From contig JAGGHK010000004.1 of NCBI GenBank assembly GCA_024104275.1, forward strand, positions 54,975 through 118,974: a stretch of DNA of 64,000 bases, written 5' to 3'. How positions within the stretch are numbered: the stretch's first letter is position 1; each line of letters begins with the position of its first letter. The stretch comes from Bifidobacterium sp. Lineage in GTDB: Bacteria; Actinomycetota; Actinomycetes; Actinomycetales; Bifidobacteriaceae. The translations under genes and the position numbers were made by a program. The notes under the pieces were generated by a model that did no database searches, was not told the origin of the DNA, and was given only the letters and a program-made list of their open reading frames with translations. Of the stretch, positions 29,206 through 56,372 are shown piece after piece.

Positions 29206-29576
29206 GAGCGGAGGCAGCCAAATCCATTATGACTTTGCAGGCAACCTCTTTAATAACAGAACGATAACAGAACGGCCTATGATGTCATACAATAGCCATG
29301 CCATCAAAATTCGGCCACGATATCATCGTCTTCCAACCCCCTATCCACAGCGACCCGAATAAGCAAAACCGCAAAGCCAAAGGGCACCCGCTGCGTTCTT
29401 GAAAGCCAGTGGCCAATACCCTCTATCCACCGGTATATCCAGATTTCTCCACATCAATCCACTTGTCTATTTTTATTTGCGCCGCTGTTTTGTGAGATAG
29501 AGCACACCGGTCGAAAGACCCTCTCAAACGCCCCTATCCGACTATCCTTGTGCCACATGCCTTTAAGGGCCCTAAG
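29206..29576. other. Gap before the nrd operon
   Basis: Non-coding as far as I can see; together with the operator region it separates the TetR gene from nrdH by 489 bp. No RNA gene or strong hairpin found. Confidence 0.5.
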
Positions 29577-29621
29577 CACTATATCTAGTGGTCGATAAAC
29601 CGACACGCTACTAGAAGTTGG
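29577..29621 (+). promoter_or_regulatory. Pair of NrdR boxes upstream of nrdH
   Basis: Box 1 CACTATATCTAGTG (29577-29590) is a near-perfect NrdR-type dyad. Box 2 CTACTAGAAGTTGG (29608-29621) is weaker. Their starts are 31 bp apart, three helical turns, the spacing usual for NrdR box pairs. The nrdH ATG is 74 bp downstream. A further dyad ACTACA-N4-TGTAGT lies at 29635-29650. Confidence 0.75.
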
Positions 29622-29694
29622 GGTTCAGTTTGGAACTACAACCATGTAGTCTGAGTTCTTGAACGCTTAGAACACATCAATTTTGGAGGTTACG

Positions 29695-29970
29695 ATGACC
29701 GTTACCGTTTTCACCAAACCACGCTGCCCACAGTGCGAGGCGACCAAGCGCCAGCTTACGCGAGCCAACATCGCGTTCGAGACCGTGGATCTGACTGAAA
29801 ACCCCTCCACCCTCGAGCAACTCACGCAGGCCGGCTTCCGCCAGGCGCCCGTCGTCATCACGCCCAACGCCTCCTGGAGCGGCTACCGTCCGGACCTCAT
29901 CAAGCAGCTCGCAGCCAGCGCCGTCGAGGCCTCTGCCAATACCACGGTTTCGCAGACCGTTCTCGCCTGA
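29695..29970 (+). CDS. nrdH: NrdH glutaredoxin-like redoxin
   Basis: Electron donor for the class Ib ribonucleotide reductase, 91 residues. The active site reads CPQCEATKRQL (CxxC) near residue 11, and the C-terminal WSGYRPDLIKQL is diagnostic of NrdH. I chose ATG at 29695 because GGAGG lies five bases upstream; the ATG at 29683 overlaps that binding site. First gene of nrdH-nrdI-nrdE under two NrdR boxes. Confidence 0.95.
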   Translation: MTVTVFTKPRCPQCEATKRQLTRANIAFETVDLTENPSTLEQLTQAGFRQAPVVITPNASWSGYRPDLIKQLAASAVEASANTTVSQTVLA

Positions 29971-30037
29971 ATTGACGATGAACCAGACGAAGCAAACGAA
30001 CCAGACGGATCAGACGAATCTTAGAGAGAAGGCGACG

Positions 30038-30703
30038 ATGGCGGACGCGAGTATCGATGACGCCACCACGCGCACCGAATCCGGCGCACAAAGCGCAGCG
30101 GGCGCAGGAGCGACGGCGGGTGCAACGGCAACCGGCGACCAAAGCGTAGCCGACAATGCAACTGCCGCCATCGATTCCGCCACGGCCATCAAGCCATATG
30201 ACGATGAGTGCGTGACGCCAAGCGAACCGGAGGCCAAGGCCAAAGGCGAACACATCGGTGCCGTGGTCTACTTCTCCTCGGTTTCCAACAACACCGCGCG
30301 TTTCATCGAAAGCTGCGGTTTCCCCGACGAGGGCATCAACGTCTACCGCATCCCGCTGCGTCCGAAAGAGGCACCGTTGCAGGTGCGTGAGCCGTACGTC
30401 CTGATCGTACCGACCTACGGCGGCGGCAATATTGCAAAGGCTTTGCTCCCGCAGATCCGCAAATTCCTCAACGGGCACAAGAACCGCAGCTTCATCCGCG
30501 GGGTCATTTCCTCGGGCAACAGGAATTTCGCCACGGCGTTTTGTGCAGCAGGCGACATCATTTCCAAGAAGTGCCACGTCCCGTTCATGTATAATTTCGA
30601 GCTCTTGGGCACGCCGGACGACCAACGTCAGGTGCGCGATGGCATCCACGACTTCTTCCTCAACGCGAAGAACGAGCGGGACGCACAAGGACAGGAACAG
30701 TAA
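30038..30703 (+). CDS. nrdI: NrdI flavodoxin-like protein with N-terminal extension
   Basis: FMN protein that activates the dimanganese cofactor of NrdF. Core from about residue 70: VVYFSSVSNNTARFIESCGF, VPTYGGGN, RGVISSGNRNFATAFCAAGD and the C-terminal NFELLGTPDDQRQV. The first 65 residues are Ala/Thr/Gly/Asp-rich and not part of the fold. Start at 30038 (MADAS) is preferred because GAGAAGG lies five bases before it; an ATG at 29978 gives a T/N/Q-rich leader without a binding site. It lies 67 bp after nrdH. Confidence 0.9.
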   Translation: MADASIDDATTRTESGAQSAAGAGATAGATATGDQSVADNATAAIDSATAIKPYDDECVTPSEPEAKAKGEHIGAVVYFSSVSNNTARFIESCGFPDEGINVYRIPLRPKEAPLQVREPYVLIVPTYGGGNIAKALLPQIRKFLNGHKNRSFIRGVISSGNRNFATAFCAAGDIISKKCHVPFMYNFELLGTPDDQRQVRDGIHDFFLNAKNERDAQGQEQ

Positions 30704-30897: not shown

Positions 30898-33084
30898 ATG
30901 GCTCTCAACGACACAGCGCTGAGCATGGACAACACCGTCGAAGACACCGGTTTCGACCCGGAGCACGACTACCATTCGCTCAACGCGATGCTCAACCTCT
31001 ACGACGAGGACGGCAAGATCCAGTTCGACAAGGACAAGGAGGCCGAGCGCGCCTACATCAACGGCCACGTCGCGCAGAACACGATGAAGTTCGGTTCCAC
31101 CGCCGAGCGCATCAAGTACTTGGAAGACAACCTTTACTACGAAAAGGCCGTCTTCGACCACTACACCCCAGAATTCCTGGATTCGTTCTACCAGCACGTC
31201 GAGGACTTCGGCTTCGAGTTCGAAACCTTCCTCGGCGCGTTCAAGTTCTATCGTTCCTACGCGCTGAAGACCTTCGACGGCAAGCAGTACCTCGAGGACT
31301 TCCCGCAGCGCAGCGCCGCCGTGGCGCTCGAACTGGCCGCCGGCGATGAGAAGCTCGCCGTCAAGTATGTCGACGAAATTCTATCCGGCCGCTTCCAGCC
31401 CGCCACCCCGACCTTCCTCAACCTGGGCAAGGCCCAGCGCGGCGAGCCCGTCTCCTGCTTCCTCGTGCGCATCGAGGACAATATGGAGTCCATCGCCCGC
31501 GGCATCAATTCCGCCCTGCAGCTTTCCAAGCGCGGCGGTGGCGTGGCGCTCTTACTCTCCAATTTGCGTGAGCAGGGCGCCCCAATCAAGCACATCGAAC
31601 ACCAGTCCAGCGGCGTGGTTCCGGTGATGAAACTCCTCGAGGACTCCTTCTCCTATGCCAACCAGCTCGGCGCACGTCAGGGCGCGGGTGCGGTCTACCT
31701 CAACGCTCACCATCCCGACATCCTGCGCTTCCTCGACACCAAGCGGGAGAACGCCGATGAAAAGACCCGCATCAAGTCGCTCTCCCTGGGCGTCGTCATC
31801 CCCGACATCACCTTCGAGCTTGCCAAGCGCAAGGAGAAGATGGCCCTCTTCTCCCCCTACGACGTCGAGCGCGTCTACGGCAAGCCGTTCGCTGATATTT
31901 CCGTCACCGAAAAGTATGACGAAATGCTCCATGACGACCGCATCCACAAGACCTACATCGACGCCCGCGAGTTCTTCATGACCCTCGGCGAGGTGCAGTT
32001 CGAGTCCGGCTACCCCTACATCCTCTTCGAGGACACCGTCAACCGCGCCAACCCGATCGATGGCCGCGTCACGATGTCGAACCTCTGCTCCGAGATCCTG
32101 CAGGTGCAGGAGCCTTCGACGTATAACGCCGACCTGAGCTACGACCACGTCGGCAAGGACATCTCCTGCAACCTCGGCTCGCTGAACATCGCGAAGGCGA
32201 TGGACGGCGGTCTGGCCGATCCGGTCGAGACCGCGATTCGCGCCCTGACTTCCGTTTCCGAGCAGACCCACATCGATTCCGTACCGTCCATCAAGCGCGG
32301 CAACGAAGAAGGCCACTCCATCGGTCTGGGCCAGATGAACCTGCACGGCTTCCTCGCCCGCGAGCGCATGCATTACGGCTCCGAAGAGGCGCTGGACTTC
32401 ACCGACATGTACTTCATGACCGTGGCCTACCACGCCTACAAGGCCTCGCACAAGCTGGCCGTCGAGCGCGGCCACGCCTTCGCGACTTTCGACAAGTCGG
32501 ACTATGCCAAAGCTGCGGGTCAAGGCAACTACTTCGACAAGTACACCGACGGCCGTCGTTCTCTCGACCCGAAGACCCAGACGGTCAAGGACCTCTTCGA
32601 GCGCTTCGGCATCCATATTCCCACCGTCTCCGACTGGGAGACGCTGCGTGACGAGATCCTCAAGGACGGCATCTACAACGAGTACCTGCAGGCCGTGCCG
32701 CCGACCGGTTCGATCTCCTACATCAACCACTCCACCTCCTCGATCCACCCGATCGCCTCGAAGATCGAGATCCGCAAGGAGGGCAAGGTCGGCCGCGTCT
32801 ACTATCCGGCGCCGTACATGAGAAACGACAACCTCGAGTACTTCGAGGACGCCTACGAAATCGGTTGGAAGAAGATTGTGGACACCTACGCCGAGGCCAC
32901 CCAGCACGTCGACCAGGGCCTTTCGCTGACCCTCTTCTTCCCCGCGGGCGTCACCACGCGTGAGCTCAACAAGGCGCAGATCTACGCCTGGCGCAAGGGC
33001 ATCAAGACCCTCTACTACATCCGCATCCGCCAGCAGGCGCTCGAAGGCACCGAGGTCGAGGGCTGCGTCAGCTGCATGCTCTGA
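30898..33084 (+). CDS. nrdE: NrdE: class Ib ribonucleotide reductase catalytic subunit
   Basis: Reduces ribonucleoside diphosphates; 728 residues, the usual NrdE size, no ATP cone. Conserved active-site segments are [19 protein letters not shown] (first redox Cys), [14 protein letters not shown] (catalytic Cys), [13 protein letters not shown] (second redox Cys), [17 protein letters not shown] and the C-terminal CVSC thiol pair. AGGAG precedes the ATG. In many genomes nrdF follows directly; here a hairpin and a 17-kb sugar-gene block come next, and the only nrdF-like gene in the window is at 50462. Confidence 0.97.
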
Positions 33085-50303: not shown

Positions 50304-50461
50304 ATCAGACTTTTCCGCTAGAATTTCAGACAAATGGAAAGGTTTCCGATGATCACAGGTCTTACTACCCGAGCTTTCCATACCGCTGCGAGCATATACG
50401 GGAGCAGGGCTCGGTATCCTGTTAATCAGTATTGATGCATTCAGACTGTAGAGGAACATTC

Positions 50462-51568
50462 ATGACTTTCACCGCAATGGATTGGGATTCCGACAACGGG
50501 AACGCCGATGCGAGCCGCGACGTCTTCAACACCATGACCGCGCAGCTCTGGACGCCCGAGCAGGTTTCGCTGGCCGATGACGCCGGGGACATTCGCGGGC
50601 TCAGCGATTCCGAGCGGGTTGCATTGAGTCGAATCTTTGCCGGCTTGTCCGCCGTCGAATCGTTGCAGGCGAGTCGCGCAACCAGCGTTTTGAGCACCGA
50701 TGCCGGCAGGGATCACGCCGGTACAGGGCAGGCCGTGCTGACCGCCATCGCATTCGGCGAATCCATACACACGAAAGCGTATTCGGCGCTTATCGCCGCA
50801 ATCGGCGGCAATGACGCGCAATCCCCGTTTGATTCGATGCAGAAAAACGAATCGATGCAGGAAAAATTGCGGCTGCTCGACGAGGTGTATGACACCGGAA
50901 ATGAAATATCAGCCGATAACGATGATTCCGGAACGGGCGACATCCCCGACCTCGGCGAGCTCAAACGTCTCGCGACGGCGGTGCTTGCGCAGGCGCTCGT
51001 GGTGGAATCCGGCTTCTACCTGCCGATGTGGCTTTCCAGCCGCGGAACGATGACGGAATCCGCCGACATCATCCGCCTGGTCAACCGCGATATCGTCACT
51101 TCCAGCTCATATCTCGGCTCCGTTTACCAGCGCAGGCTCGAACAGCTCGAAGACGAAACTCGCGAAACCATGCGCCAGTATGTCTACGACCTGGCCAACA
51201 ACCTCTATTTCGCCGAAGAAGATTACAGCTATACGCTGCCTTACGCCGACCTCGGCCTCGACGACGACATCGAGAAGTTCCTGAGCTATAACGCCAACAA
51301 AGCCCTCTCCTACTTGGGATACCCGGCCTTGTTCCCCGCCGAGATCAGCCAGCCGAACCCGGCCATCATCGACGAGCTCAACGATATGGAATCGTTGGCA
51401 TCCGCGCTTAAACCCGCCAGCCTGTTCGGCGGCAGCGGCATCAATTTCTCCTCAACTGCCTCCACGAGCGCCGCCGTCGGGGCCTCGACTTCCCCATCCC
51501 CGTCCTCGACCGACGCTACCGCAGCCAACAAGGCCGAAGAAACCAACGACGACGACTGGGATTTCTGA
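50462..51568 (+). CDS. nrdF: NrdF-like ribonucleotide reductase beta subunit lacking metal ligands
   Basis: 368-residue ferritin-like protein aligning along NrdF: IFAGLSAVESLQ, VLTAIAFGESIHTKAYSALI, SGFYLPMWLSSRG, ADIIRLVNRD, FLSYNANKALSYLGYPALFP, tail DDDWDF that docks on NrdE. Judged against class Ib NrdF, E100 and H103 and the radical Tyr (Y107) remain, but the first Asp is Glu (E66), the third carboxylate is Gln (Q177), the fourth is Ile (I211) and the second His is Ser (S214). A normal dinuclear metal site cannot form. Start ATG at 50462 with AGAGGA. An S/T/A-rich linker precedes the tail. No NrdR box seen upstream. It may be an inactive or regulatory paralogue, or an unusual radical protein. 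Confidence 0.82.
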   Translation: MTFTAMDWDSDNGNADASRDVFNTMTAQLWTPEQVSLADDAGDIRGLSDSERVALSRIFAGLSAVESLQASRATSVLSTDAGRDHAGTGQAVLTAIAFGESIHTKAYSALIAAIGGNDAQSPFDSMQKNESMQEKLRLLDEVYDTGNEISADNDDSGTGDIPDLGELKRLATAVLAQALVVESGFYLPMWLSSRGTMTESADIIRLVNRDIVTSSSYLGSVYQRRLEQLEDETRETMRQYVYDLANNLYFAEEDYSYTLPYADLGLDDDIEKFLSYNANKALSYLGYPALFPAEISQPNPAIIDELNDMESLASALKPASLFGGSGINFSSTASTSAAVGASTSPSPSSTDATAANKAEETNDDDWDF

Positions 51569-54657: not shown

Positions 54658-56004
54658 TCAGCCGCGCCCGGACCACTTTGGGTTGATGCTCATCGTCTGG
54701 AAACGATGCTGCATAACGGTGTTGCCGAAATGCTGGCCGAAGAAACGGGCGACCGGGGAGGTCTGCGGCAAGCCGGCGACGCGGCCGTACCAACAGTCGA
54801 GCGCCATCAGGGTGACGGCGATATCGATAAGCATGAACACCAGCACGACGGCGGTCAGCGCGTAACGCCACTTCCACGGAATGAGATTGATGAATTTCAG
54901 CAGACGCGGCAATAGCTCACGCAACCAAATCAAGCCTGCCAACCCCCAGAAAACCATGTATTTGCCACAGGTCTTCCCACCGAAAAGTGGCAGCCAGTCG
55001 TTCGAATAGTTCCAGGCGATGATGCCGAACGCGATTTGCATGAACCATGCTACGAAGGCTTCAAAGCAACCGCCGATAATCGCGCTGGCGAAGAAAATCA
55101 TGATGGCGTTGGCGTGCCAAAGCCGGTTCAGGCACATGGTGAGCACCACGACGCCGAAACCGTAAATCGGCGAGAACGGCCCCCAGATCAGCCCCGCGCG
55201 ATCTTGCCATTCGTTGAAGAAGATAAGATGATAGATTTCCTCGACAATCAGCCCACCGACGCAACCGACCACGAAAAGCCAGAATACGTTGAAAACATTG
55301 AGCTCGACGTAGCCTTTGCCGCTCGGGTCACGGCCGAGCATGCCGGCGCCTTTGGCCTCGATGTATTCGTCGTGCTCGTCCATCCGCTTGAGCTTGCGCT
55401 GCACGGCACGTTCGCCGATCAGCGCCGGGTCGAGCGCGATGGCGAGCGCCACCAGTATCGCGATCTGAATCAGCGAGAGCCCGACACCAAGCCCAAGCCC
55501 CTGCAATGCCAACGAAAGCATGCCCTGAACCACGGTCACCGCCATCAGCACATATGCCCATCGCGCCGCGTGCTTACGCATGTCGCGCAACAGTGTGACA
55601 CCGAAAACAATCAACGTCGCGGCATTGGCCAGTGAAACAACCGCCTGCGCGCAGGTGAGCAAAAACGTCAAATCGAGAGGGTCAGGGTGAAGGCTGCCGG
55701 TCAGGAATTTATGGATGCCGTCGAAAATCGCATAACCGACATACGGCACACCGACGAGCCCGACCAGCAAAACCAGAACGCCGTAAATACGGCCGATGAC
55801 GGTGAGGTGCTGGGATGCGCGATTCGCCAAGTTGCGCGAGGCATCACCGACACCTTCCGCGGCGCGAGCGGCTGAATGCGCCACAGCTCCGGCTGCTGAA
55901 CTTGCCGCTCTTCCGAGTGCGTTCGTTGAGGATTTGGCAGAGTTACGCAAAGTCTTGTCGCCAAGCATTTTCTTCGATTTTTCATCGTCAGGAGCAGCGT
56001 TCAT
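54658..56004 (-). CDS. CmpB/DUF1113-like polytopic membrane protein
   Basis: About 448 residues with roughly ten predicted membrane spans. The C-terminal half carries the putative ABC-transporter type IV (CmpB, DUF1113) signature: VEEIYHLIFFNEWQDRAGLI, WGPFSPIYGFGVVVL, ASAIIGGCFEAFVAWFMQIA. The N-terminal 50 residues are cytoplasmic and Ala/Ser/Lys-rich, and another transmembrane block precedes the CmpB part. Function unknown in this family. Start ATG at 56004 (MNAAPDD) because GGGGAG lies just upstream; an in-frame ATG at 56022 overlaps the binding site. Confidence 0.75.
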   Translation of the reverse strand: MNAAPDDEKSKKMLGDKTLRNSAKSSTNALGRAASSAAGAVAHSAARAAEGVGDASRNLANRASQHLTVIGRIYGVLVLLVGLVGVPYVGYAIFDGIHKFLTGSLHPDPLDLTFLLTCAQAVVSLANAATLIVFGVTLLRDMRKHAARWAYVLMAVTVVQGMLSLALQGLGLGVGLSLIQIAILVALAIALDPALIGERAVQRKLKRMDEHDEYIEAKGAGMLGRDPSGKGYVELNVFNVFWLFVVGCVGGLIVEEIYHLIFFNEWQDRAGLIWGPFSPIYGFGVVVLTMCLNRLWHANAIMIFFASAIIGGCFEAFVAWFMQIAFGIIAWNYSNDWLPLFGGKTCGKYMVFWGLAGLIWLRELLPRLLKFINLIPWKWRYALTAVVLVFMLIDIAVTLMALDCWYGRVAGLPQTSPVARFFGQHFGNTVMQHRFQTMSINPKWSGRG

Positions 56005-56372
56005 TGTTCCACTCCCCTTCATACAGCGTCCTCAGCAATCCTTTTAAGGCTACCCTGCACCACGGTCGGGTTCAAATCGGGGGTCAAAGAGGTTGCGGAA
56101 ATTAATTCATATCAATTTGGACAGTCGATCCCGCACTCGGATTCGGGCAAGCTTCGTTCCCGTCGTATTCTTTGTTTCGTCGACAAAATATCTCGGCGCC
56201 GCAAACACGCCACACATCGCAACACCACCCAATATATTCGCTTTGAACAGAAGATTTAGGGCATCCAATAAAGTGATACATCGGGGAAAATAGCGAATAC
56301 AAGCGCAAATCCGGCACACTGAGTCGGACGTTTCCCGTTTCATCCGACAAAGCAAGCCTAAAGGAGCCCACT
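56005..56372. other. Intergenic region before the YhgE pair
   Basis: No gene seen. The region is moderately AT-rich at 56090-56300. Just before the first YhgE gene GTCGGA-type arms (56323-56348) can form a small hairpin, and AAAGGAG marks the ribosome binding site. No firm promoter. Confidence 0.45.

Follow-up and report, generated by a model that had tools for sequence, protein, structure and literature searches.

The open reading frame at 50462-51568 of the window (by which we mean the whole 64,000-nucleotide stretch of Bifidobacterium sp. DNA that was analysed) encodes a degenerate NrdF, here called a pseudo-R2, which has lost the class Ib metal ligand set and the C-terminal tyrosine and has kept the NrdE-docking tail. 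As read from the sequences, these losses are accompanied by purifying selection that is tightest on the tail, by a position in the nrdHIE operon in some relatives, by a co-resident NrdF of the metal-free QSK type, and by the lack of an NrdR-box pair. Our preferred reading, with a probability of about 0.42, is that this is a former class Ib nrdF, displaced by the QSK NrdF, and that its product is now a non-catalytic R2 that would dock on NrdE and compete with the QSK NrdF as a brake or buffer.

Residues lost and kept by the degenerate NrdF

The product matches the NrdF family (PF00268, 168.9 bits) and has the R2 fold of class Ib subunits. The features of the gene are as follows.

50450..50455, + strand: ribosome-binding-site-like AGAGGA, 6 bases 5' of the ATG, read from the sequence
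50462..51568, + strand: degenerate NrdF (pseudo-R2), 368 aa plus stop
50549..50551, + strand: W30 of the inner radical chain, kept in 12/12 orthologues
50657..50659, + strand: E66 at the Asp ligand position, Glu in 12/12
50759..50770, + strand: E100 and H103 at ligand positions 2 and 3, Glu in 11/12 and His in 12/12
50780..50782, + strand: Y107, the radical-type tyrosine, 12/12
50990..51007, + strand: Q177 (ligand position 4) and E182 (channel tyrosine position, the channel being mapped by motif spacing)
51089..51103, + strand: D210, kept in 12/12; I211, replacing the bridging Glu; S214, replacing the site-2 His
51425..51526, + strand: low-complexity linker, evolving fast (dN/dS 0.555 over its aligned part) and lacking the interface tyrosine
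51527..51565, + strand: NrdE-docking tail NKAEETNDDDWDF, under tighter constraint than any other segment (dN/dS 0.048)

Residues were mapped using E. coli R2 numbers (W48, D84, Y122, E204, D237 and others), W30 being the equivalent of E. coli W48. The original prediction had placed E66, E100, H103, Q177, I211 and S214 at the six ligand positions, and this was confirmed. Misalignment as the cause of the odd ligands was ruled out, as PDB alignments, a MAFFT alignment and a superposed model concur, and the structure-guided comparison did not restore the expected ligands. The class Ib set Asp, Glu, His, Glu, Glu, His, canonical in 41/41 class Ib rows, is absent from all 12 degenerate NrdFs of the genus, in which the positions read Glu (12); Glu (11) or Ser (1); His (12); Glu (8) or Gln (4); Ile (11) or Leu (1); and Ser (12). 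The bridging Glu and the site-2 His are lost in every one, and the G025 protein has Ser for E100 and Gln for E177. The pattern was said to differ from the VPK and QSK patterns, and it does, the site-2 His being Ser in 12/12 with no Lys at the bridging position.

No Tyr occurs between the NPA motif and the C-terminus in any of the 12 proteins, so that the equivalent of Y356 is missing, and the SSY tail is found in 41/41 Ib rows and 29/31 QSK rows. The two QSK rows that lack it, those of G085 and Corynebacterium, are left out of the QSK counts for the tail, for the columns that separate Ib from QSK, and for residue conservation. R2s characterised so far conserve and need this C-tail tyrosine, which passes the radical to the large subunit (PMC8463856), and the class Ib superoxide channel of B. 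cereus is reported to be lined by Ser162, Tyr166, Lys263 and Asn267 (PMC9462851). The channel residues, mapped onto the degenerate NrdFs by motif spacing, are S, Y, K and N throughout the rows counted (41 Ib, 29 QSK); in the 12 degenerate proteins the Ser is replaced by Ala in nine and Val in one and kept in two, the Tyr is replaced by Glu in 11 and Gln in one, the Lys is kept in 12, and the Asn is Tyr in 12. The pseudo-R2 should be unable to build the two-metal site because the bridging Glu and site-2 His are lost, to take the NrdI oxidant through the usual channel because the Tyr, the Asn and mostly the Ser are changed, or to pass a radical to NrdE because the tail tyrosine is lost.

The docking motif EET.DDDWDF, as expected of a class Ib subunit that docks on NrdE, is present in 12/12 degenerate NrdFs, with T361, D363, D365, W366 and F368 as the kept tail residues; the C-terminus of R2 binds a cleft in R1 (PMC3824934). 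The inner radical chain W30-D210-H103-Y107 is also intact in 12/12, and the retention of Tyr107 and of the DDDWDF tail claimed for the window's protein therefore extends to all of its orthologues. The Ib and QSK rows have 139 residues in common, each present in at least 95% of either group, and 52 of these recur in 11 or 12 of the degenerate NrdFs. W30, D210, H103 and Y107 (hypergeometric chance that these four are all retained, 0.018) and the five tail residues named above are among the 52. Two low-complexity stretches (residues 147-161 and 318-355 in the window; loci L041, L044 and L045) vary greatly in length among the orthologues, which are 368-441 aa long, and the core flanking these stretches can still be aligned.

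Distribution, descent and operon history

A PF00268 search of 112 Bifidobacterium genomes gave a match in 96, and NrdF residues were classified for 69 of these, the other 27 comprising 22 that score like Ib and 5 like QSK. The resulting 85 NrdF rows (69 genomes plus one Corynebacterium row) were 41 canonical Ib, 31 QSK (one from Corynebacterium), 12 degenerate and one disrupted. The disrupted one is the class Ib nrdF of G103 (L046 5935-6936), which looks frame-disrupted around the fourth ligand, with an out-of-frame stretch and one TAG in the second match. The degenerate orthologues occur in 12/112 genomes of the genus, all of one clade (G000, the window's genome, with G025, G082-G084, G086, G087 and G089-G093), which rules out a one-genome sequencing oddity. 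An AGGA lies within 15 bases 5' of the start in 12/12 and the frame is open in 11/12, in agreement with the clean frame and good ribosome binding site predicted for the window's gene. Frameshifted or variable orthologues had been named as a sign of decay, and one case was seen, the G082 gene having an internal TGA inside a variable insert.

All 12 carriers also have a QSK NrdF and one NrdE match. A genome-wide RNR search, proposed with the original prediction, was made in the window's genome (2.16 Mb, 94.85% complete). It found one class III NrdD and a single other NrdF (G000:C3, L001 1363-2415, minus strand, PF00268 278.7 bits), with D, Q, H, S, K, H at the ligand positions, which is the QSK pattern of metal-free class Ie. 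This QSK nrdF is preceded by a tandem NrdR-box-like pair and is not on the contig that carries nrdHIE. The genome also encodes an NrdR of 154 aa, with a Zn ribbon and an ATP cone, and the remaining class I genes lie in the window.

29683..29970, + strand: nrdH, glutaredoxin family (PF00462, 52.7 bits)
29972..30703, + strand: nrdI, the sole NrdI in the genome, exact start uncertain (PF07972, 135.8 bits)
30898..33084, + strand: nrdE, the sole NrdE in the genome and presumed docking partner of the pseudo-R2

An NrdF tree with ligand states, also suggested beforehand, was built with IQ-TREE (C20) from 84 rows, leaving out the frame-disrupted and misaligned G103 NrdF and holding no VPK rows. The degenerate NrdFs form one group at 100/100, apart from the 31 QSK rows, which form another at 100/100. 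Descent from inside the QSK clade was ruled out, as the QSK rows group at that support without degenerate rows. The degenerate branch is very long (flagged by the tree program), and its attachment point among the Ib rows is unsure. At columns where Ib and QSK differ (90% threshold), the pseudo-R2 has the Ib residue at 12, the QSK residue at 8 and some other residue at a further 12, a comparison that only leans to a class Ib origin. Using phmmer with the pseudo-R2 as query, scores were 164-198 bits to intact Ib rows versus 129-145 to QSK rows (within the genus, among the ORFs searched). We base the class Ib origin on synteny, on the ligand states and on the scores rather than on the tree. By ligand set, the pseudo-R2 would belong neither to class Ib nor to class Ie.

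Among 189 genomes of the family, one further copy was found, in G131, and among 396 genomes drawn from the order matches at E 1e-60 or better occurred only in G000, G086 and G131. A scan of genome contigs gave one orthologue, in Bifidobacterium sp. ESL0784, together with the Corynebacterium QSK NrdF. No degenerate relative was present among 44 aligned viral-contig matches (from the best 80 of 244 matches, 33-37% identity); in that alignment of 47 rows the D66, E100, E177, E211 and H214 positions are canonical in at least 90% of rows. The G131 copy, from another genus of the family, is open, reads E/E/H/E/I/S and lies beside a truncated nrdE that is mostly 94-96% identical to that of the window's clade. 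It is in a 19-kb stretch found at both ends of a single contig, 99.76% identical (G131:C1:2000-21999, L195; 2170000-2189999, L196), and may have been transferred recently or be an artefact of assembly. An Ib-scoring and a QSK-scoring nrdF of its own are present in G131 as well.

The degenerate gene follows nrdHIE directly in G025, G089, G091 and G093, with gaps of 143-167 bp, and is therefore read as the original class Ib nrdF of the operon. The strand and order of nrdHIE and the degenerate nrdF are the same in 12/12 carriers, with other genes between them in eight: the distance from nrdE is 1.3-2.0 kb in G084, G087 and G092, 5.7 kb in G083, about 10-13 kb in G082, G086 and G090, and 17.4 kb in the window. 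In G088 and G012, nrdE is followed by a homologue of the window gene at 54661-56022 and only chance tblastn matches to the degenerate nrdF were obtained; in G012 the interval from nrdE to the next conserved gene holds no remnant. These two genomes, together with G085 and G013, keep a QSK NrdF without a degenerate nrdF. In a 21-row NrdE tree that includes 8/12 carriers, G013 and G012 are the earliest branches, followed by G025 and after it by the rest, with G088 among them (SH-aLRT 80-99). A parsimonious history is that both NrdFs were once present; G012 and G013 lost the Ib copy, whereas the ancestor of the other clade kept it in degenerated form and G088 later lost it. In another genus of the family (g5; G127, G128 and G138), an Ib-scoring and a QSK-scoring NrdF, assigned by score, lie about 4 kb apart.

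G085 is not in the NrdE tree and probably belongs to the carrier clade, because its nrdE is 91-97% identical to the window's. That nrdE (L064, 9987-12224) is split over three frames, so the assembly may be faulty, and the G085 QSK NrdF has no usual SSY tail; either the assembly is wrong here or the class I RNR of G085 is in decay. Being absent from G088 and G085 and broken in G082, the degenerate nrdF is dispensable, so that any role is accessory.

Selection and regulation

Selection was estimated by the Nei-Gojobori method over 343 codons, a simple method without codon-bias or transition correction. The comparison across related species, which had been proposed as a check, gave dN/dS values of 0.086-0.396 in 66/66 pairs of degenerate nrdF (median 0.168), and the claim that the gene is not in simple decay is upheld. 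Medians were 0.054 (0.021-0.118) for the QSK nrdF of the same 12 genomes and 0.065 (0.030-0.124) for nrdE of 8 of the 12 carriers. By region, with pairs pooled and not independent, dN/dS was 0.18 for codons 1-60, 0.16 for 61-118, 0.22 for 119-150, 0.15 for 151-210, 0.113 for the C-terminal core (211-300), 0.555 for the linker and 0.048 for the last 13 codons. In 28 matched pairs from 8 genomes, the non-synonymous difference of the degenerate nrdF is about 7.6 times that of the QSK nrdF, and the synonymous difference 1.6 times. All 12 share the losses at the bridging Glu, at the site-2 His and at the tail Tyr, so most of the counted substitutions should postdate them. Selection on the degenerate nrdF is relaxed relative to the QSK nrdF, yet well removed from neutrality, and it is strictest at the tail.

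Upstream regions were scored against an NrdR-box consensus, taking the best box pair within 400 bp 5' of the start, out of 32. Pair scores were 20-25 for nrdH (11/11 loci), 20-26 for QSK nrdF (15/15) and 12-17 for the degenerate nrdF (13/13, G131 included), and random 400-bp stretches of the window gave a mean of 14.9 and a maximum of 19 (1486 stretches). An NrdR-box-like pair was found in the 400 bp upstream of 0/13 degenerate nrdF genes. The pair before nrdHIE in the window is the following.

29576..29623, + strand: NrdR-box-like pair in front of nrdHIE, two boxes of 16 bases whose starts are separated by 32 bases, the first matching the consensus at 13/16 and the second at only 8/16

The first nrdH box scores 12-14/16 and the second 8-9/16 in 10/11 loci (12 in G013), so that the nrdH pair score rests mostly on one box because the second is weak. 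For QSK nrdF most pairs have two strong boxes, scoring 10-12/16 and 11-14/16, and the weakest pair, that of G013, scores 10 and 10. When single boxes were scanned, the best box reached at least 12/16 at 8/8 nrdH and 10/11 QSK upstreams and at most 10 at 12/12 degenerate nrdF; the QSK exception, G092, was recovered in the pair scan measured from the coding start. Pairs were sought at the spacing known for NrdR boxes, 15-16 bp (PMC12051234). The active RNR genes appear to lie inside the NrdR regulon and the degenerate nrdF, having no such pair, apparently outside it.

Read-through from the NrdR-controlled nrdHIE is possible in the four genomes where the genes are adjacent. Hairpins of -26 to -30 kcal/mol lie between nrdE and the degenerate nrdF in these four; equally strong hairpins were found at 3/39 ordinary Ib nrdE-nrdF junctions, and the hairpins were set aside as decisive evidence because they also occur at ordinary junctions. 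Scanning for promoters on the plus strand in front of the degenerate nrdF gave none in the window and one weak match in locus L053. A CGGTA-type element is located 48-58 bases 5' of the start in 8/8 genomes in which the gene is apart from nrdE (window 50412-50420) and in 0/4 with adjacent genes, and is perhaps the gene's own promoter.

Proposed role and comparison with known systems

According to the preferred reading, the pseudo-R2 would be the former class Ib product of an nrdHIEF operon, in which the metal-free QSK NrdF took over radical generation and the old copy then lost its own. It retains the fold and the inner Trp-Asp-His-Tyr chain, and most strongly of all the NrdE-docking tail; it would dock on the single NrdE at the same site as the QSK NrdF and be unable to fire. 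Its share would rise when NrdR shuts down nrdHIE and the QSK nrdF, because these carry NrdR-box-like sites and the pseudo-R2 gene does not, and the outcome would be a dose-dependent brake or buffer on ribonucleotide reduction. Docking, competition and braking are what we infer. The idea in the original prediction that the protein inhibits or modulates NrdE thus becomes a leading reading, but only as inferred function. A pure decoy would have no need of the W-D-H-Y chain, and the retention of this chain is our strongest ground for caution about the brake model. Put more generally, and still tentatively, bacteria may own a dedicated pseudo-R2, a superseded Ib subunit that now only docks and thereby regulates, at the protein level and outside NrdR control, how much a metal-free class Ie RNR produces.

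The main rival, which we consider rather unlikely, is that the pseudo-R2 forms a heterodimer with the QSK NrdF and stabilises or matures it, the QSK half giving the radical together with the tail tyrosine, and the pseudo-R2 half no more than a tail for anchoring. Three ligands are likewise missing from yeast Rnr4, which acts in the Rnr2/Rnr4 pair (PMC2704937), in E. coli class Ia only one half of the interface is engaged at any time (PMC8463856), the QSK NrdF is present in all 12 carriers of the genus, and the fold and core are kept. However, an NrdR-box pair before 0/13 pseudo-R2 genes versus 15/15 QSK nrdF genes would be odd for a stoichiometric partner, and G088, G085, G012 and G013 have QSK without pseudo-R2. 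That the gene is a decaying, functionless relic of the displaced nrdF, not yet gone, is improbable: it would explain the 7.6-fold non-synonymous difference in matched pairs, the lack of a copy in G088 and G085 and the internal TGA in G082, but not a dN/dS median of 0.17 (0.086-0.396) after the losses were fixed, 11/12 open frames with that of G131 open too, or a tail that is the most constrained segment. A relic kept by chance, as first suggested, is likewise disfavoured by these values, although the gene is dispensable. An active R2 with a new cofactor, such as one metal on E66/E100/H103 or a modified Y107, another of the roles first suggested, is very improbable, since in spite of the W-D-H-Y chain kept in 12/12, the invariant E66 and H103 and a Glu at 177 in 8/12, the remaining carboxylates vary among orthologues (E100 to Ser in one, G025, and E177 to Gln in four, G025 included), the tail tyrosine is absent in 12/12 and the channel residues are changed.

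If the preferred reading holds, the pseudo-R2 would record the fate of an old subunit after a switch from class Ib to a metal-free RNR, with contrasting ends: in G012 the old copy is gone, whereas in the window's clade it is kept with its docking tail. An NrdF match in a genome is accordingly no proof of a working class Ib RNR.

The QSK R2e of Gardnerella (Bifidobacterium vaginale) forms DOPA, and the DOPA-containing protein supports ribonucleotide reduction in vitro; QSK nrdF genes with no nrdE next to them are described as well, an nrdE located elsewhere sometimes having its own non-QSK nrdF (PMC11846895). No mention of a degenerate nrdF was noted there. No NrdF pseudoenzyme or inactive RNR small-subunit paralog was found in the open-licence PMC literature, and in that literature we know of no bacterial R2 that combines ligand loss and tail-tyrosine loss with docking kept. 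The pseudo-R2 resembles a class Ib NrdF in its fold, Y107, W-D-H chain, docking tail and place after nrdE in four genomes, but differs from it in lacking the metal ligands, the oxidant-channel residues and the interface tyrosine. Class Ie QSK proteins (for example Gardnerella R2e, 8rag/8rah) keep both His and gain a Lys, whereas the pseudo-R2 has lost one His and has neither the Lys nor the tail tyrosine; the QSK protein is a co-resident paralogue of a separate clade.

The apicomplexan R2_e2, a second R2, has conserved docking residues and has lost the C-terminal tyrosine, keeps its iron ligands, and is without the radical tyrosine outside Plasmodium (PMC3824934). The pseudo-R2 likewise keeps the docking residues and loses the tail tyrosine but, unlike R2_e2, loses ligands and keeps the radical tyrosine. 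In yeast Rnr4 three ligands are changed, so that it cannot hold a metal centre, and it is required to activate Rnr2 (PMC2704937). Like Rnr4, the pseudo-R2 is an R2-fold paralogue, judged by its residues to lack a competent metal site, beside an active R2; Rnr4 is a eukaryotic class Ia protein and is required, whereas the pseudo-R2 is bacterial, class Ib-like and dispensable, has an especially conserved tail, and resides with an R2 that is metal-free. Should the proposed role prove true, it would be a bacterial counterpart of Rnr4 and R2_e2, giving control of dNTP supply at the protein level.
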